Assembly (NCBI GenBank): GCA_018434325.1
Contig: JAHDPO010000061.1
Coordinates: 1 to 36,186 of the forward strand
Length of the DNA stretch: 36,186 nucleotides
DNA from: Clostridia bacterium
Lineage (GTDB): Bacteria > Bacillota > Peptococcia > DRI-13 > UBA5745
Direction of reading: 5' to 3'
The notes below the pieces were generated by a model that was given only the letters and a program-made list of their open reading frames with translations, did not search any database and was not told the DNA's origin. Of this stretch, positions 3,183-36,186 are shown piece by piece (position 1 is the first letter of the stretch; the number at the start of each line of letters is the position of its first letter). The position numbers and the translations under genes are program-made.

Positions 3183-6100
3183 ATGAGAAAAATAATGAGC
3201 ATATTACTGACTCTAACCTTGATACTGGGCCTACTCCCGGTAACGGCAGCGGCAGACGGAGGCTCGGCAACTGAAGTATGGGTGGGGGGTACCAATGTTG
3301 TAAACGGAGATAATATTACATATTGGTTGAACGGCAGTGACGGTGGCATTGATTCCACCGATGCCGATGAAGAAAACTACAATGTAAAATTTGATCCAAA
3401 TGAAGGGAAACCCACCCTTACCCTCAGGGAAGCATCAATTATGAAATCATATACTGTACCATCGGGAGTGTTTACTGGATCTAAATATGGTATTTATTCT
3501 AATGTTGAACTGGAACTTGTGATAGTAGGCGATAATAACAGGGTAATTTCAGAAGATGTATCTGATAAAAGCAGTGCCGGTATATATGTTTACCCCGGCA
3601 ATCTTATGATATCCGGTAGCGGCACCTTAACAGTCTATGGTGGAAAAGGATCATTTAGCTACGGTATATTTATTGGCAGCGGGGATTTAACTGTTGAAAG
3701 CGGCAATTTGGTGGCTGGCGGGGAAAATGATGCTACGCAAAAAAGTTGCGGTATTGAACTTCAAGGAAATGGGCATCTTATTATAAAAAATGGCAGCAAG
3801 GTAACAGCATCCGGAGGGAAGACTGCTTATCCCAGCTATGGCGTTATTAGCACGAATCCTACTGGCAAAATAATTGTTGAAAGCGGTGGTAAACTATCGG
3901 CAAAGGGAGGTAGCTCTACATTATCAAATAGTTACGGTATTCATAGTACCAGTCTGGACATAAATGGTGAATTAACAGCAATCGGGGCTTCCGCCGGAAC
4001 ATATAGCTATGGCATCAGGGGCAACAATATCACTATTAGCAGTGGCGCTGTTGTCAGTGCTGTCGGCAGTATAGCTACTAATAAAAGTTACGGCATTTTG
4101 GTCGGTAATAATCCCGGTAACAAGATCAGCATAAATGGGGGAGAGGTAACAGTTTATGCCCAGAGCCATGCTATGGATATAGCTCCCGATGTGTCAGGCT
4201 TTGACAATCTACAGGTTACTGCTAGTGAAAATTATACCGGCACGCCAACAACCCAATACAAATCCGATTCAATTGGTGACTACAAATACTTAAAGTTTGG
4301 GCCTGACAACACATCCCCCACAGTTACTTCGGTATCGGTGCCGCCAGAGGGAGACTATTCGAACGGACACACTTTGGACTTCACGGTAAATTTTGACGAG
4401 AATGTGACTGTAGACACAACAAACGGCACACCGTATATCGTGCTGACGGTTGGTTCAATAACAAAGCAGACCGTTTATGTCAGTGGCAGCGGCACACAAA
4501 AGCTAGTCTTTCGGTATACGGTGAATGCGGGCGACAGTGACAGCGACGGCGTCAGCATTGACTCTCTAATCCTCAACGGTGGCACCATTCAAGATGCAGC
4601 AGGAAACAATGCGAACTTGACGCTCAATGACGTAAACAGCACAGCCGGGATACGGGTAAATCCCCTGGTAGCTCCTTCCATCACTAGCCATCCGTCCTCT
4701 CAGACGGTGACCGAAGGGCAGTCAGCTACTTTCTCGGTTACGGCAAACGGAACAGGTTCAATCTACCAGTGGCAGGTTAACACCGGCTCAGGCTTTACGA
4801 ACATCTCGAACGGCCCATTGTATAGCGACGCCATGACGGCGACGCTGACAATCACCGGAGTAACCGCAGGGATGAACGGCTATCAATACCGTGCCATCAT
4901 CAGTGGCACGGCAGCGCCTGTTGCTACCTCAAATTCAGCCACGCTAACGGTAAACGCTGCGCCCAGCTACACCATTACAGCCAATCCGACCACTAAGGAC
5001 TTCAGTTCGCTGACGGTGGGCTACACTGCCCAGGCAGCGCAGACTGTCACCATCACAAACACCGGAAACTCCAGCGTGACGCTGACCCAGCCGACCAGCA
5101 CCAACTACACCATCGGCATACTTAGCTATACCACACTGGCGGCAAACGGCACGGCTACCTTTACCGTTGCTCCGAAAGCCGGTCTTGCGGTGGGCAATTA
5201 CGATGAAACGCTGACAGTAAGCACCGACCACAGCACCAATGCCACGGTAGAATTGAGTTTTTCTGTAACGGCGGCTCCTACCTACACCATCACCTTCAAC
5301 CCGAACGGGGGCTCGGTCAGTGAAACATCACGCTCAGTTGCATCCGGCACAGCGGTAGGAACGCTCCCGACACCGACACGTTCTGGCAGTTACAGCTTTG
5401 ACGGCTGGTATACGGCGGCAAGCGGCGGATCTCAAATATCTGCAAGCACAACCGTCAGTGCAAATGTGACCTACTATGCCCATTGGACTTACGCCGGCGG
5501 CGGTGGCTCTAGAAGTGGCAGCGGAAGCTCCTCAAACGACAACAGCAGCCCTGTTATCGTCATCCCACCCGCACCGGACAAGCCGAATTCACCTACACAG
5601 GGGGAAATCAAGGTTTCCGGCACAGTGGACAGTAAGGGCAATGTTACAGTGAACATTTCCGACAAAACTGTGACCGATGCCTTTGAGAAGGCTCTGATGG
5701 ACGCCAAGAAAAACGGCAACGAGCAAAATGGAATCACGGTGATCCTCCGTGTTGATACCGGCAGTAAGACCGGCTCTAATGTTACGGTCAATCTGCCTAA
5801 GACCGTGCAGGACACTATCATTGAAAAGAAAATCGTCAACACCATTGTGGTGGTAGATAACCCCGACATCCGAATCGGCATGGATTTGGCTACCGTGCAG
5901 GAAATCAACAGACAGGTAAAATCGGATGTCAACATCACCGCCACCCGTGGGGACAGTAGCAAGCTGACCGGTGATGCGAAAAAAGCCATCGGTAGCCGCC
6001 CGTTATTCGACCTCAAGGTGAACTACGGCAACAGCAAGGCAGTTAGCAGATTCGGCGCAGGCAGTGTGTCAGTAACGATTCCATACACCCTCGGCGCAAA

Positions 6101-20436: not shown

Positions 20437-20478
20437 TCAATCCTGCAGATTCAATCCTGCAGATTCAATCCTGCAGAT
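20437..20478. repeat. Three tandem copies of a 14-bp unit
   Basis: TCAATCCTGCAGAT occurs three times without gaps. It contains the palindrome CTGCAG. It lies within the inverted-repeat-bounded element. There are no spacers, so it is not a CRISPR. Confidence 0.85.
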
Positions 20479-20542
20479 TCTATCTGCTATCCGCAGATCC
20501 TGGGGCGCAGATGTTCCGCTATCCTGAGATAATTGGGCGCAG

Positions 20543-20765
20543 ATGTACAATTTTTGCGTTTGTATGCGTTTTCCGGATTCGGCCTGTACAATTTTTGCGT
20601 TTGTGGGTGAATTGCAGCTGCTGCCGAGGCCTATTTTAGCCAAATCGAGGCCTATTTTGCGCAATTTCTTCGGTTGTAAGGGAATACTTCCCCTGCATTT
20701 CACCTACAAACGCAATTTTTGTACACCCTGCCCCGGCCAATTGACCACAACCGCAATTTTTGTAC
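20543..20765. repeat. Cluster of short related repeats around CAATTTTTG
   Basis: CAATTTTTG occurs at least four times (near 20546, 20588, 20712 and 20755). The first two are embedded in GTACAATTTTTGCGTTTGT-like context; the last two are embedded in ACGCAATTTTTGTACA, so the outer context is inverted while the core is not. A GAGGCCTATTTT pair (near 20626 and 20647) and a GCGCAGATGT pair (near 20505 and 20534) lie in or near the same block. The pattern is internal to the inverted-repeat element. Confidence 0.55.
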
Positions 20766-32411: not shown

Positions 32412-34239
32412 ACAGAAGACCGGTTAGTCCCCAGGCGATCAGCAGCATTTTCAGCAGCTTTTGTCTGGTTTTTTTATTGATGGCGTAAACAAGACCGATG
32501 ACGGCGGCGGCCAGGATCAGCCTCGCCCCCAGCTTCAGCCATCGACCATAAGAAAGCAGCGAAAAGGATAAGACGCCCTTGTATATCAATAATGCCAAAG
32601 CAGCGAAAGCGGCAAGCTGCAAAATACAGCATGAGGCAATAATAAAGCAGCGTTTAAATGAACCGGGACGTCGGCAGGCGCTTCGGCCTGCGCTCCGGTC
32701 GGCGCTCCGGTCGGCGCTCCAGCCTGCCCCCCTGCGCCTGTTAAACAGCAAGACGAATTGCCGCCGCAGGCAAGCAAGAGTGAGACCGGCAAATAAAAGC
32801 GGCAGAATCCCTTGCCAATACGGCTGCTGCCAAGAGGGGGCTTTGGCAAAGGTGATGGCTGATTCTGTGGCCAGTATGATTTTGCCCTCCTTATTTAAAA
32901 ACTTTATTACGCCTAAGGGGGATTCGTACAGATCCCGGCCAATCAGCCTGAGGCTTTCTCCTTTGATGGCAAAACCTTTGTCAATAGAGCCCGTAATGGT
33001 CAGGTCCTTGCCCGGTATAAGGTAGCGCAGAATTTTTTCCACCGTCTGAAAACTGGAGCAGTGATTTACATAATAACCGCTGACGTCCATCGTGGCTTCG
33101 CCGCTATCCCCTGCCGCAGCAGCCGCCCCGGCCGCCCCGGCCGCCTCCGCCGGCGGCCCGTACAGTAGCGCCGTGGCTTTGGCCATCATGGCATTGATCT
33201 CCTGCTCCGGCAAGTAAGTATTGCAAGAGAAAAAAACGCCGGTCTGCTTTTCCGGGTACAAAGCGATGCGGCTGTAGAAGTGAAGGGTCTCCCCCTTTTT
33301 ATCATAATAAAGCTGGCCGTTGGTGATTTTTCTGTTCCAGGTATAGCCCATTCCCGCCAGCTCCTCCGCCATGGTAAACTGTCGGTCAAAAAGCTGTGCT
33401 TTCAATTGCGGCGATAATACGCGGCTATCCTGCCGGTCAAGCAGCCAGCTCATATAATTTGCCATATCGGCGGCGGTGGATATGGCGGAACCCTCCGGAT
33501 AGAGGTTTATGTAGGGCTCAAGGGTTTCCTGGCCATTTGGCAGATAAGGCTTGGAGACATAGACAATATCCTGCATATATTCAAAGGTGGTGCGCTGCAT
33601 AGCCAAAGGCAAAAAAATCTTTTCCAGGCAAAAAGCGGCAAAGTCCTGCCCGCTGACCTCTTCCACCACGTAGGCTGCCAGGGCAATCCCGTAATTGGAA
33701 TAAGAAACGGCCTCTCCCGGCTTTAGAATCTGAGCCGGCCGATATTTGACTACGGTTTCTTCAAGAGGCTCTGTTTGACTGACCGCATAAACGGCTATAC
33801 CCGTCACCACATCTTCAAAACCGGCCGTGTGGGTAAGCAGCTGTCTCATGGTCACCGGATAATCCAAAGCCGGGAAAGCCCGGCGGACATAATGAGCAAT
33901 ATCCTCATCCATATCCAGCCTGCCTTCCTGTTTCAGTATTTGCGCTGCCACCGCCACGAAAGTCTTGGATATTGAGCCGATACGAAAAGCTGTTTTTTCG
34001 CCGTCGGCAGCTATTCCCTGGTATTGATCGGCAAAGCCAAGGCCGCGGCACAGCAGCACTTCCCCTTCCTGAACGACGGCCAATACGGCGCCTTTTGCTT
34101 TACCCTCTCCTACCAAAGCCTCAGCGGCTGCCGTTAACTCCCCTGCTAAACTCTCCGAAGCGCCTTGCGCAGCGGTAGAGCCGGCCCCTATTGAAATGAG
34201 CAGCAATACAGATACCAGCAATTTCATTAATTTCGTCAT
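32377..34239 (-). CDS. Membrane-anchored serine beta-lactamase-like (class C / PBP-type) protein
   Basis: A 620-residue protein with a signal peptide (about 1-25), then a beta-lactamase-family domain to about residue 350: catalytic SxxK Ser89-Ile-Ser-Lys92, the LLTHTAGF block and YxN Tyr180-Ser-Asn182. These proteins are often peptidases, esterases or D-amino-acid-processing enzymes rather than true beta-lactamases. After an Ala/Gly-rich stretch (about 365-375), a beta-strand domain leads to four C-terminal membrane helices (about 480-500, 530-555, 570-590, 600-618). The loop between the first two contains a short tandem repeat (ADRSADRSAGRSA). The ATG follows GGAGG at ten bases. It is divergent from the two-component genes at 34423. 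Confidence 0.88.
   Translation of the reverse strand: MTKLMKLLVSVLLLISIGAGSTAAQGASESLAGELTAAAEALVGEGKAKGAVLAVVQEGEVLLCRGLGFADQYQGIAADGEKTAFRIGSISKTFVAVAAQILKQEGRLDMDEDIAHYVRRAFPALDYPVTMRQLLTHTAGFEDVVTGIAVYAVSQTEPLEETVVKYRPAQILKPGEAVSYSNYGIALAAYVVEEVSGQDFAAFCLEKIFLPLAMQRTTFEYMQDIVYVSKPYLPNGQETLEPYINLYPEGSAISTAADMANYMSWLLDRQDSRVLSPQLKAQLFDRQFTMAEELAGMGYTWNRKITNGQLYYDKKGETLHFYSRIALYPEKQTGVFFSCNTYLPEQEINAMMAKATALLYGPPAEAAGAAGAAAAAGDSGEATMDVSGYYVNHCSSFQTVEKILRYLIPGKDLTITGSIDKGFAIKGESLRLIGRDLYESPLGVIKFLNKEGKIILATESAITFAKAPSWQQPYWQGILPLLFAGLTLACLRRQFVLLFNRRRGAGWSADRSADRSAGRSACRRPGSFKRCFIIASCCILQLAAFAALALLIYKGVLSFSLLSYGRWLKLGARLILAAAVIGLVYAINKKTRQKLLKMLLIAWGLTGLLFSGWMHWLNLL
32677..32724. repeat. Four tandem 12-bp units within the beta-lactamase-like gene
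   Basis: Units related to GGCGCTCCGGTC run from 32677 to 32724; the second and third are nearly identical. On the minus strand each encodes four residues of the Ser-Ala-Asp-Arg type, so length changes keep the frame. It lies in the loop between two membrane helices. Confidence 0.85.
33122..33148. repeat. Three 9-bp units encoding an Ala/Gly linker
   Basis: GCCGCCCCG occurs twice and GCCGCCTCC once, coding on the minus strand for an Ala-Ala-Gly type linker between the catalytic domain and the C-terminal part of the beta-lactamase-like protein. Confidence 0.8.
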
Positions 34240-34422: not shown

Positions 34423-35124
34423 TTGAATATCCTGATTGCAGAAGATGAAAAAGATATCCGTAATTTACTGGCCATCAGCCTGGAGGAAAAGGGCTATACT
34501 GTTTTTCCGGCCAAAAACGGCGCGGCCGCCTGGGAAATCATTAAAACCCAAGAAATCCATCTGGCTATCCTGGACGTCATGATGCCGGAGCTGGACGGGT
34601 TTAATCTTTTACGAAGAATCCGGGAGGTCAGCACCCTGCCGGTGATCTTCCTGACAGCAAGGACCGAGGATATGGATAAAGTCTTAGGCTTGGGCCTGGG
34701 GGCCGATGATTATCTGGCCAAGCCCTTTTCCATGAACGAGCTGGCAGCCCGGGTGGCCGCCCAGCTGCGCCGTAATCATGAATATCTCAATCCCAAAGAG
34801 CCGGAGACCTTAAGCCTGCAATACGGCGAGCTTTACATCGACAAAAAAGCCTGCTGCGCCTACCTAAGCGGCCGGCTGCTGGAGCTTAATCCCAAAGAAT
34901 ATAAGCTGCTGGTATTTCTCATGGAAAATCCCGAGAGGGTTTTTACGAAAAAGCAGCTTTACAACGCCGTATGGGGTGATGATTATTTCTACGACGACAA
35001 TACCATCATGGTACACATCAGCCACCTGCGCAACAAAATAGAAGGCGATACCCAAAGCCCCGAATACATCAAAACCATACGGGGCCTGGGCTATAAGCTG
35101 CACAAGATCGGCGGCAGCCGATGA
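34423..35124 (+). CDS. OmpR/PhoB-family response regulator
   Basis: A 233-residue two-domain regulator. The TTG start follows AAGGAGGG. Receiver domain (1-115): the acidic pair Glu7/Asp8, phospho-acceptor Asp51 (AILDVMMPELDG), Thr78 and Lys100 (LAKPFS). The C-terminal winged helix (about 130-228) has the OmpR-type LNPKEYKLLVFLMENP, TKKQLYNAVWG, VHISHLRNKIE and IRGLGYKL blocks. It overlaps the kinase gene as ATGA, so the pair is coexpressed. The neighbouring divergent beta-lactamase-like gene and the direct repeat between them suggest local regulation of the envelope enzyme. Confidence 0.95.
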   Translation: MNILIAEDEKDIRNLLAISLEEKGYTVFPAKNGAAAWEIIKTQEIHLAILDVMMPELDGFNLLRRIREVSTLPVIFLTARTEDMDKVLGLGLGADDYLAKPFSMNELAARVAAQLRRNHEYLNPKEPETLSLQYGELYIDKKACCAYLSGRLLELNPKEYKLLVFLMENPERVFTKKQLYNAVWGDDYFYDDNTIMVHISHLRNKIEGDTQSPEYIKTIRGLGYKLHKIGGSR

Positions 35125-36186
35125 AGAGCAAAATCTTTCGCCAGTTTTTGGCCAATTATCTGGCGATACTTTTACTGTCCCTGCTGGCGGCGGTTCTGGC
35201 TTTTTTGTTGCTCTCCCTGGCCGACGGCGCCCTGTCCAAGACACTGATGAAAAGCGTCTACACCGCCGGCGCTTTAATGCGGGACGATTACAGGGATATC
35301 GATACCGCCGGCGTCGTCGATAATGGCGGCGGCGTGCAGGTCATCGACGGCAGCCATCGGGTAATCTATTCCCAAGGCCTGGACATCGTCGGCAAAAGCC
35401 GGCTTTCAACGGCGGAATTCACGGATTTCCTGACCCAAAGCAAAGCCAAAGGCCTGCCTTATCACATCGACGTGCTTTATAACGACAGGTCGGATTTTTG
35501 GCTGGTGGTTACCTTTCCCACCTCTATCCGCCTGGATTTCTCCCTGGTATACAACCGGGCGGCGGCTTCAAAGGATATGGGCAGCGTGGCCGGAATCTTC
35601 GGCGCTGTCGGGCTTTTTTACTTTCTTCTGCTGGCCGTGTTCGCCTTGATTTTTTCCCGGCTTACCTCCTCAGGCATCACCGGGCCGCTGCAGAAGCTTT
35701 GCGAAGGAACGAAACGCTTGCGGGAAGGCGATTATTCCGCCCGGGTCAATTTGCAGCTAAAAAACGAGTTCAAAGAGCTGCAGGATACCTTTAATGAAAT
35801 GGCGGAAAAAATCGAAAAGGAAACGGCATTAAGGGAAGAGGCGGAAGCGGACCGCAAGCGGATGATCCTGGACATTTCTCACGATTTAAAAAATCCCCTG
35901 GCCAGTATCGCCGGCTATAGCGAGCTTTGCCTGCGAAAGGCGGCGGAATGGCCGTCGGTGCAGGAGCAGGCGCCGATGCCGGTGCAGGAGCAGATGCAGG
36001 CGCAGGTGCCAGTGCAGGCGCAGGCGCAGGTGCCGGTGCAGGCGCAGGCGCAGGAGCCGATGCAGGAGCAGGCGCAGGAGCCGATGCTGGCGCAGGAGCC
36101 GATGCTGGCGCAGGAGCCGGTGCAGGCGCTGGCGCAGGTGCCGGCGCAGGCGCAGGTGCAGGTGCCGGTGCAGGTGCAGGTGCCGG
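35121..36186 (+). CDS. Sensor histidine kinase, partial, with in-frame repeat array after the H-box
   Basis: The open frame begins at ATG 35121 (overlapping the regulator stop) and runs past the window end; 355 codons are visible. Two membrane helices (about 10-33 and 155-178) flank an extracytoplasmic sensor (about 35-150). A HAMP domain (about 180-232) and short coiled coil lead to the H-box ILDISHDLKNPLASIAGYSEL with His254. Normally the second DHp helix and the ATPase domain would follow. Instead, from about residue 280 the protein reads only Gln, Val, Ala, Pro, Glu, Met and Leu in a repeated pattern to the end of the window. Whether catalytic domains follow is not visible. It probably phosphorylates the regulator encoded upstream. 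Confidence 0.88.
   Translation, partial: MKSKIFRQFLANYLAILLLSLLAAVLAFLLLSLADGALSKTLMKSVYTAGALMRDDYRDIDTAGVVDNGGGVQVIDGSHRVIYSQGLDIVGKSRLSTAEFTDFLTQSKAKGLPYHIDVLYNDRSDFWLVVTFPTSIRLDFSLVYNRAAASKDMGSVAGIFGAVGLFYFLLLAVFALIFSRLTSSGITGPLQKLCEGTKRLREGDYSARVNLQLKNEFKELQDTFNEMAEKIEKETALREEAEADRKRMILDISHDLKNPLASIAGYSELCLRKAAEWPSVQEQAPMPVQEQMQAQVPVQAQAQVPVQAQAQEPMQEQAQEPMLAQEPMLAQEPVQALAQVPAQAQVQVPVQVQVP
35958..36186 (+). repeat. Hexanucleotide-type coding repeat array (GTGCAGGCGCAG-like), runs off the window
   Basis: At least 229 bp made of degenerate units such as GTGCAG, GCGCAG, GTGCCG, GAGCCG and GAGCAG. In the kinase frame nearly every codon ends in G and encodes V/A/P/Q/E/M/L in alternation with Q or P. 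Higher-order repeats occur, for example ATGCTGGCGCAGGAGCCG twice near 36080-36120. All unit sizes are multiples of three, so length change keeps the frame. Confidence 0.93.

Follow-up and report, generated by a model that had tools for sequence, protein, structure and literature searches.

A coding minisatellite in the DHp turn of a histidine kinase gene split over two contigs of a Clostridia bacterium

The window, a stretch of 36 186 nucleotides, comprised contig C70 in full; the draft genome to which it belongs (G000) totals 3.83 Mb in 70 contigs. Its last gene was a histidine kinase ORF that began at 35121, was overlapped at its start by 4 bases of the 3′ end of a response regulator gene, and stayed open to the end of the contig. 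The features at this locus were as follows.

34423-35124, plus strand: gene of an OmpR/PhoB-type response regulator (Pfam Response_reg and Trans_reg_C).
35121-36186, plus strand: 5′ part of the histidine kinase gene (ORF and Pfam), with a transmembrane sensor, HAMP, DHp helix 1 and the first part of a repeat array.
35880-35882, plus strand: codon of the phospho-acceptor His254 in SHDLKNP (from the sequence; invariant across 16 homologues).
35940-35956, plus strand: first bases of the insert (AAEWPS), ahead of the regular repeat and directly after the helix 1 end in the model of a same-genus relative, G004 (alignment to G004; model).
35957-36186, plus strand: coding minisatellite of GGNGCN hexamers (Tandem Repeats Finder and hexamer profile), continuing on contig C58, bases 1-192.

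The sensor half of the kinase was unremarkable up to the H box. Pfam placed HAMP at residues 184-232, and the H box SHDLKNP, with His254, lay in DHp helix 1, in agreement with an earlier note on this DNA that had described both as normal. The Pfam HisKA domain was matched only at profile positions 2-31 of 66, ending at residue 278. The sequence departed from the relatives at 35940 (residue 274), and the regular array followed from 35957. Tandem Repeats Finder reported the array at 35957-36183 as about 38 copies of a 6-bp unit with an 18-bp higher-order unit, at a score of 217; the best score among 200 dinucleotide shuffles of the region was 77. Read in the kinase frame, Gln, Pro or Leu alternated with Val, Ala or Glu. 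The array was open in all six frames, a composition effect of the repeat, and its openness was not accepted as evidence of coding; the array is shown to be coding because an in-frame continuation exists on a second contig.

This contig, C58, came to light when the genome was queried with the kinase DNA; the first 170 bases of C58 matched the array at 93 %. It begins within the array and reads in the same repeat frame through ...QVPVQKGPAEIKGYLEIIAKNSQRASRLLSQFF... into DHp helix 2 (EIKGYLEII), followed in frame by a HATPase_c domain (E = 4.5e-25) with an N box (HNLADNALRYN) and G boxes (DDGIGI and GGSGLGL), and by a stop codon at base 781. The units have periods of 6, 18 and 42, and one repeat frame holds on both contigs, as is typical of frame-keeping coding VNTRs. 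The earlier note had placed the array between the two DHp helices and had proposed looking beyond it for an ATPase domain with N and G boxes; helix 1 is indeed on C70, helix 2 on C58 past the array, and the ATPase domain follows. Neither the stop codon nor the frameshift that it had named as possible objections was seen in the assembled parts. Contigs C33, C64, C48 and C3 were rejected as the true continuation: their local similarity to the array was only 68-76 %, and none had the ATPase half of a kinase adjacent.

An uninterrupted kinase gene, 84 % identical to the split kinase, was present in G004 (on the contig of record JAHDMJ010000033.1, Clostridia bacterium R1-B15.2), flanked upstream by the genes of C70 and downstream by those of C58 (a zinc-ribbon gene and DUF3810 plus peptidase S11). 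Since the gene order of G004 matches both contigs, the right end of C70 and the left end of C58 are neighbours; judged by this synteny, the array is what broke the assembly between them. The further objection that the array might be an assembly artefact was rejected, as the kinase-array junctions occur independently on two contigs, flank both sides of one turn, and belong to contig ends that G004 makes adjacent. Order- and class-wide searches for further orthologues returned none beyond the five relatives already found.

The DHp turn of close relatives is about five residues long. G004 was contiguous across it, with the loop KKMGQGAEEEIKGY, and the alignment read ...ELCLKK-MGQGAEE-EIKGYLEI... 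in G004 against ...ELCLRK-AAEWPS-[array]-KGPA-EIKGYLEI... in the split kinase. The G004 kinase was modelled with AlphaFold2 from 16 sequences (mean pLDDT 76); the model had helix 1 at residues 216-273, helix 2 at 279-307 and the turn at 274-278. Because the alignment and the modelled helix ends coincide with it, the insert replaces exactly the DHp turn. The array itself was predicted as coil, with a pLDDT of about 50 throughout and helix up to residue 276, in a single-sequence model of residues 228-355 whose confidence was low, as expected for disorder.

Insert sequence amounted to 247 bases on C70 and 205 bases on C58, compared with an equivalent of 7 residues in G004. An exact 110-bp block was common to both array ends (window 36047-36156 and C58 31-140), with different flanks. 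If the block is one place (the best overlap), the insert is 282 bp or 94 codons, and the codon phases agree; if it is two copies, the insert has 452 bases or more, some 150 codons. The insert thus has a minimum length of 94 residues, and probably of 150, the middle of the array being unassembled and both its total length and its frame across the gap being deduced from the two contig ends.

The block and its surroundings also contained in-frame AGGAGCCGATG units, which are candidate internal starts. Two proteins might in principle be made from the gene, the fragment of helix 2 and the ATPase domain being started within the array at an in-frame ATG preceded by AGGAG (CAGGAGCCGATG). Several EPM units occur on both contigs, the last at most 10 codons from the end of the array on C58, but the spacing of 3 nt between AGGAG and ATG is short and the repeat unit itself generates the motif, and such a dual product is regarded as very improbable.

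The array kinase shares with the class I kinases of the HisKA type (Pfam PF00512; HK853, WalK/VicK and CovS-like) the order sensor-HAMP-DHp-HATPase and the H, N and G boxes, and these kinases were its best matches in sequence and fold, HK853 and WalK-type kinases being the best among solved structures. Their DHp turn, though, is short, whereas that of the array kinase is filled by 94 or more residues of repeat. The H-box and helix-2 motifs were 38 residues apart in 15 of the 17 homologues that allowed the measurement and 32 or 39 apart in the others. Among the HisKA domains of G000 and G004, 32 of 33 matched at least 51 of the 66 profile positions unbroken, and the array kinase, which lacks a helix 2 following a short turn within an uninterrupted profile, was the only one interrupted. 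A census of nine genomes of the family gave 159 HisKA hits; those listed, which did not include the weakest, were full length except for one at a contig edge. The statement of the earlier note that no kinase family with such an insert was known has held so far, in that none was found in 20 homologues or in the listed HisKA domains of the nine genomes; the insert was seen in one genome, and this comparison covers one family of genomes and the 20 homologues. In the literature, by the titles found, there was no repeat insertion in a DHp loop and no coding minisatellite in a kinase.

The regulator and the kinase resembled pairs of the VanRS and PhoBR types, scoring best against models of VanR, VanS, WalK, PnpS and PhoB, but all scores were far below the curated cut-offs and no named system can be assigned. 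With NCBIfam, the G004 kinase reached 180 bits against a cut-off of 400 for VanS and 182 against 725 for WalK, and the best models for the regulator, VanR and PhoB, were likewise below their cut-offs. The neighbours of the pair, an AmpH/class C β-lactamase-like protein and a D-Ala-D-Ala carboxypeptidase, hint at a role in the cell wall.

Between G000 and G004, dN/dS was 0.093 before the array, 0.161 after it and 0.071 in the partner regulator. Comparison of the C-terminal half with three outgroups gave no excess of changes on the array branch (7 against 7, 5 against 11 and 1 against 10), and relaxed selection after the insertion was seen in neither analysis. By these measures purifying selection has acted on both halves of the kinase over most of the period since the lineages split; dN/dS is an average over that whole period, in which a very recent disabling insertion would leave no sign. 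The array could have turned the kinase into a young pseudogene, through a frameshift in the unassembled part or failure to form a bundle, the intact motifs being a relic. The centre of the array does lie in an unsequenced gap, no other kinase examined had so large an insert in its catalytic core, and the genus acquires repeats readily. Set against this are the agreement of the repeat frame on C70 and C58, the intact catalytic motifs with no acceleration on the array branch, and the divergence among array copies (the 110-bp exact block with different flanks), which indicates that the array is probably not brand new; recent inactivation is considered unlikely. The reading preferred here, with a probability of about two in three, is of a single histidine kinase gene that is divided between the two contigs and encodes a kinase that is still active and carries a disordered tether in its DHp turn. 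A point against it is that dN/dS is somewhat higher in the C-terminal half (0.161) than in the N-terminal half (0.093).

The DNA of the array suggests where it may have come from. In the GGNGCN register, positions 1, 2, 4 and 5 were 97, 87, 100 and 100 % one base, and positions 3 and 6 only 47 and 63 %. The variable positions correspond to third codon positions if the kinase strand is read as Gly-Ala, or the opposite strand as Ala-Pro, and similar DNA in relatives encoded mostly (AP)n linkers and sometimes (GA)n. The kinase array therefore has the same GGNGCN DNA as the Ala-Pro and Gly-Ala linkers of the lineage, but it is read in the third frame (Q/P/L alternating with V/A/E) and lies inside a conserved domain. 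The most economical account is that repeat DNA of the linker type entered the turn as a copy, or expanded there from such a seed, and that the frame now read is not the one in which it evolved. Tandem arrays numbered 13.2 per 100 kb in G000 and 17.9 in G004, compared with 3.9 in the control, a single genome with a G+C content of 0.41 against 0.50 in the genus; the samples included contigs picked for their arrays, and in the unpicked part of G004 52 arrays were counted over 270 kb, a density of about 19 per 100 kb. Across 55 orthologue pairs there were eight insertions of at least 8 residues, mostly of low complexity, one of them being the kinase array, cut by the contig end. As the genus is rich in repeats, a mutational origin of the array is likely, and it probably arose by slippage or repeat transfer. 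Like the coding VNTRs and contingency loci of bacteria, it is tandem and in coding frame with a period that is a multiple of three, but the on/off frame switching of contingency loci is not expected of it. The usual places of coding VNTRs are surface proteins and linkers rather than the interior of a catalytic four-helix bundle.

Other repeats were noted in the two genomes. Directly after the kinase stop, C58 785-1588 is about 800 bases of repeat-rich intergenic DNA, absent from G004, with 45-bp units (GCAGATGTTCCTACGG...) and inverted AAATTGCA motifs; at C58 1831-2292, on the minus strand, a zinc-ribbon protein has a GAGAGSGSGSGSG run in place of a shorter, unrelated stretch in G004. In the window, a 12-bp coding array (SADR/SAGR) at 32672-32724 lies in the C-terminal part of the AmpH/β-lactamase-like protein and is missing from the G004 orthologue. 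Repeats of 14 and 32 bp at 20437-20544 contain the motif GCAGAT / GCTATCCGNAGAT, which is found again in arrays of several contigs, C58 included, and in G004, a dispersed repeat family of the genus. Related G+C-rich hexamer arrays stand at contig ends, at C64 1-226 downstream of a GGDEF/EAL gene and near the end of C33 in an apparently intergenic stretch, and are probably further assembly breaks. A FliY-like protein (C48 494-2125) has a linker in which an 18-bp unit encoding QPMQQP is repeated about 27 times. In G004, contig C35 has a 647-bp GGNGCN array at 3380-4026 (54-bp unit, 12 copies), the other strand of which is an Ala-Pro-rich ORF of 315 residues.

In the preferred reading of an active, tethered kinase, the GGNGCN array would replace in frame a turn of some five residues with a disordered segment rich in Q, V, A, P and E, and the gene would be translated through the whole array, its unassembled middle included. 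Packing of the two DHp helices into the four-helix bundle of the dimer should still be possible, as the insert would project from the hairpin tip like a flexible tether; the turn being a surface tip, the insert would be tolerated and the enzyme would most likely stay active. Whether autophosphorylation occurs in cis or in trans is reported to be fixed by the short DHp loop, through its length or its handedness (PMC6798134; PMC5956149). A long chain would no longer impose one topology, with mixed or switched cis/trans directionality as the predicted outcome, and the short-loop rule may have been lost.

It is improbable, and somewhat more so than inactivation, that a length-variable disordered loop frees the kinase from that rule with its length setting the balance of cis to trans or of kinase to phosphatase. 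A rheostat of this kind, tuned under selection by gain and loss of units, is a shade more doubtful still. Unit lengths in multiples of three, the reported effect of loop handedness on cis or trans (PMC6798134; PMC5956149) and the differing near-copies at the array ends on C70 and C58, which fit recent rearrangement or length variants, would all suit it. The variable bases of the array are, however, second codon positions in the kinase frame, where the residues show no sign of selection; the repeat-rich genome offers a mutational explanation, and the array is known from one genome, with one genome per species compared. If length did set the balance, array length would govern a two-component system that stands among cell-wall genes.

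A probably active kinase with a disordered turn of 94 to 150 or more residues and an 84 % identical relative with a normal turn would together form a direct natural test of the cis/trans loop rule, and the pair would also probe how much change the core of a signalling enzyme tolerates. For the lineage, the array suggests that repeat growth can enter a conserved catalytic core as well as linkers.
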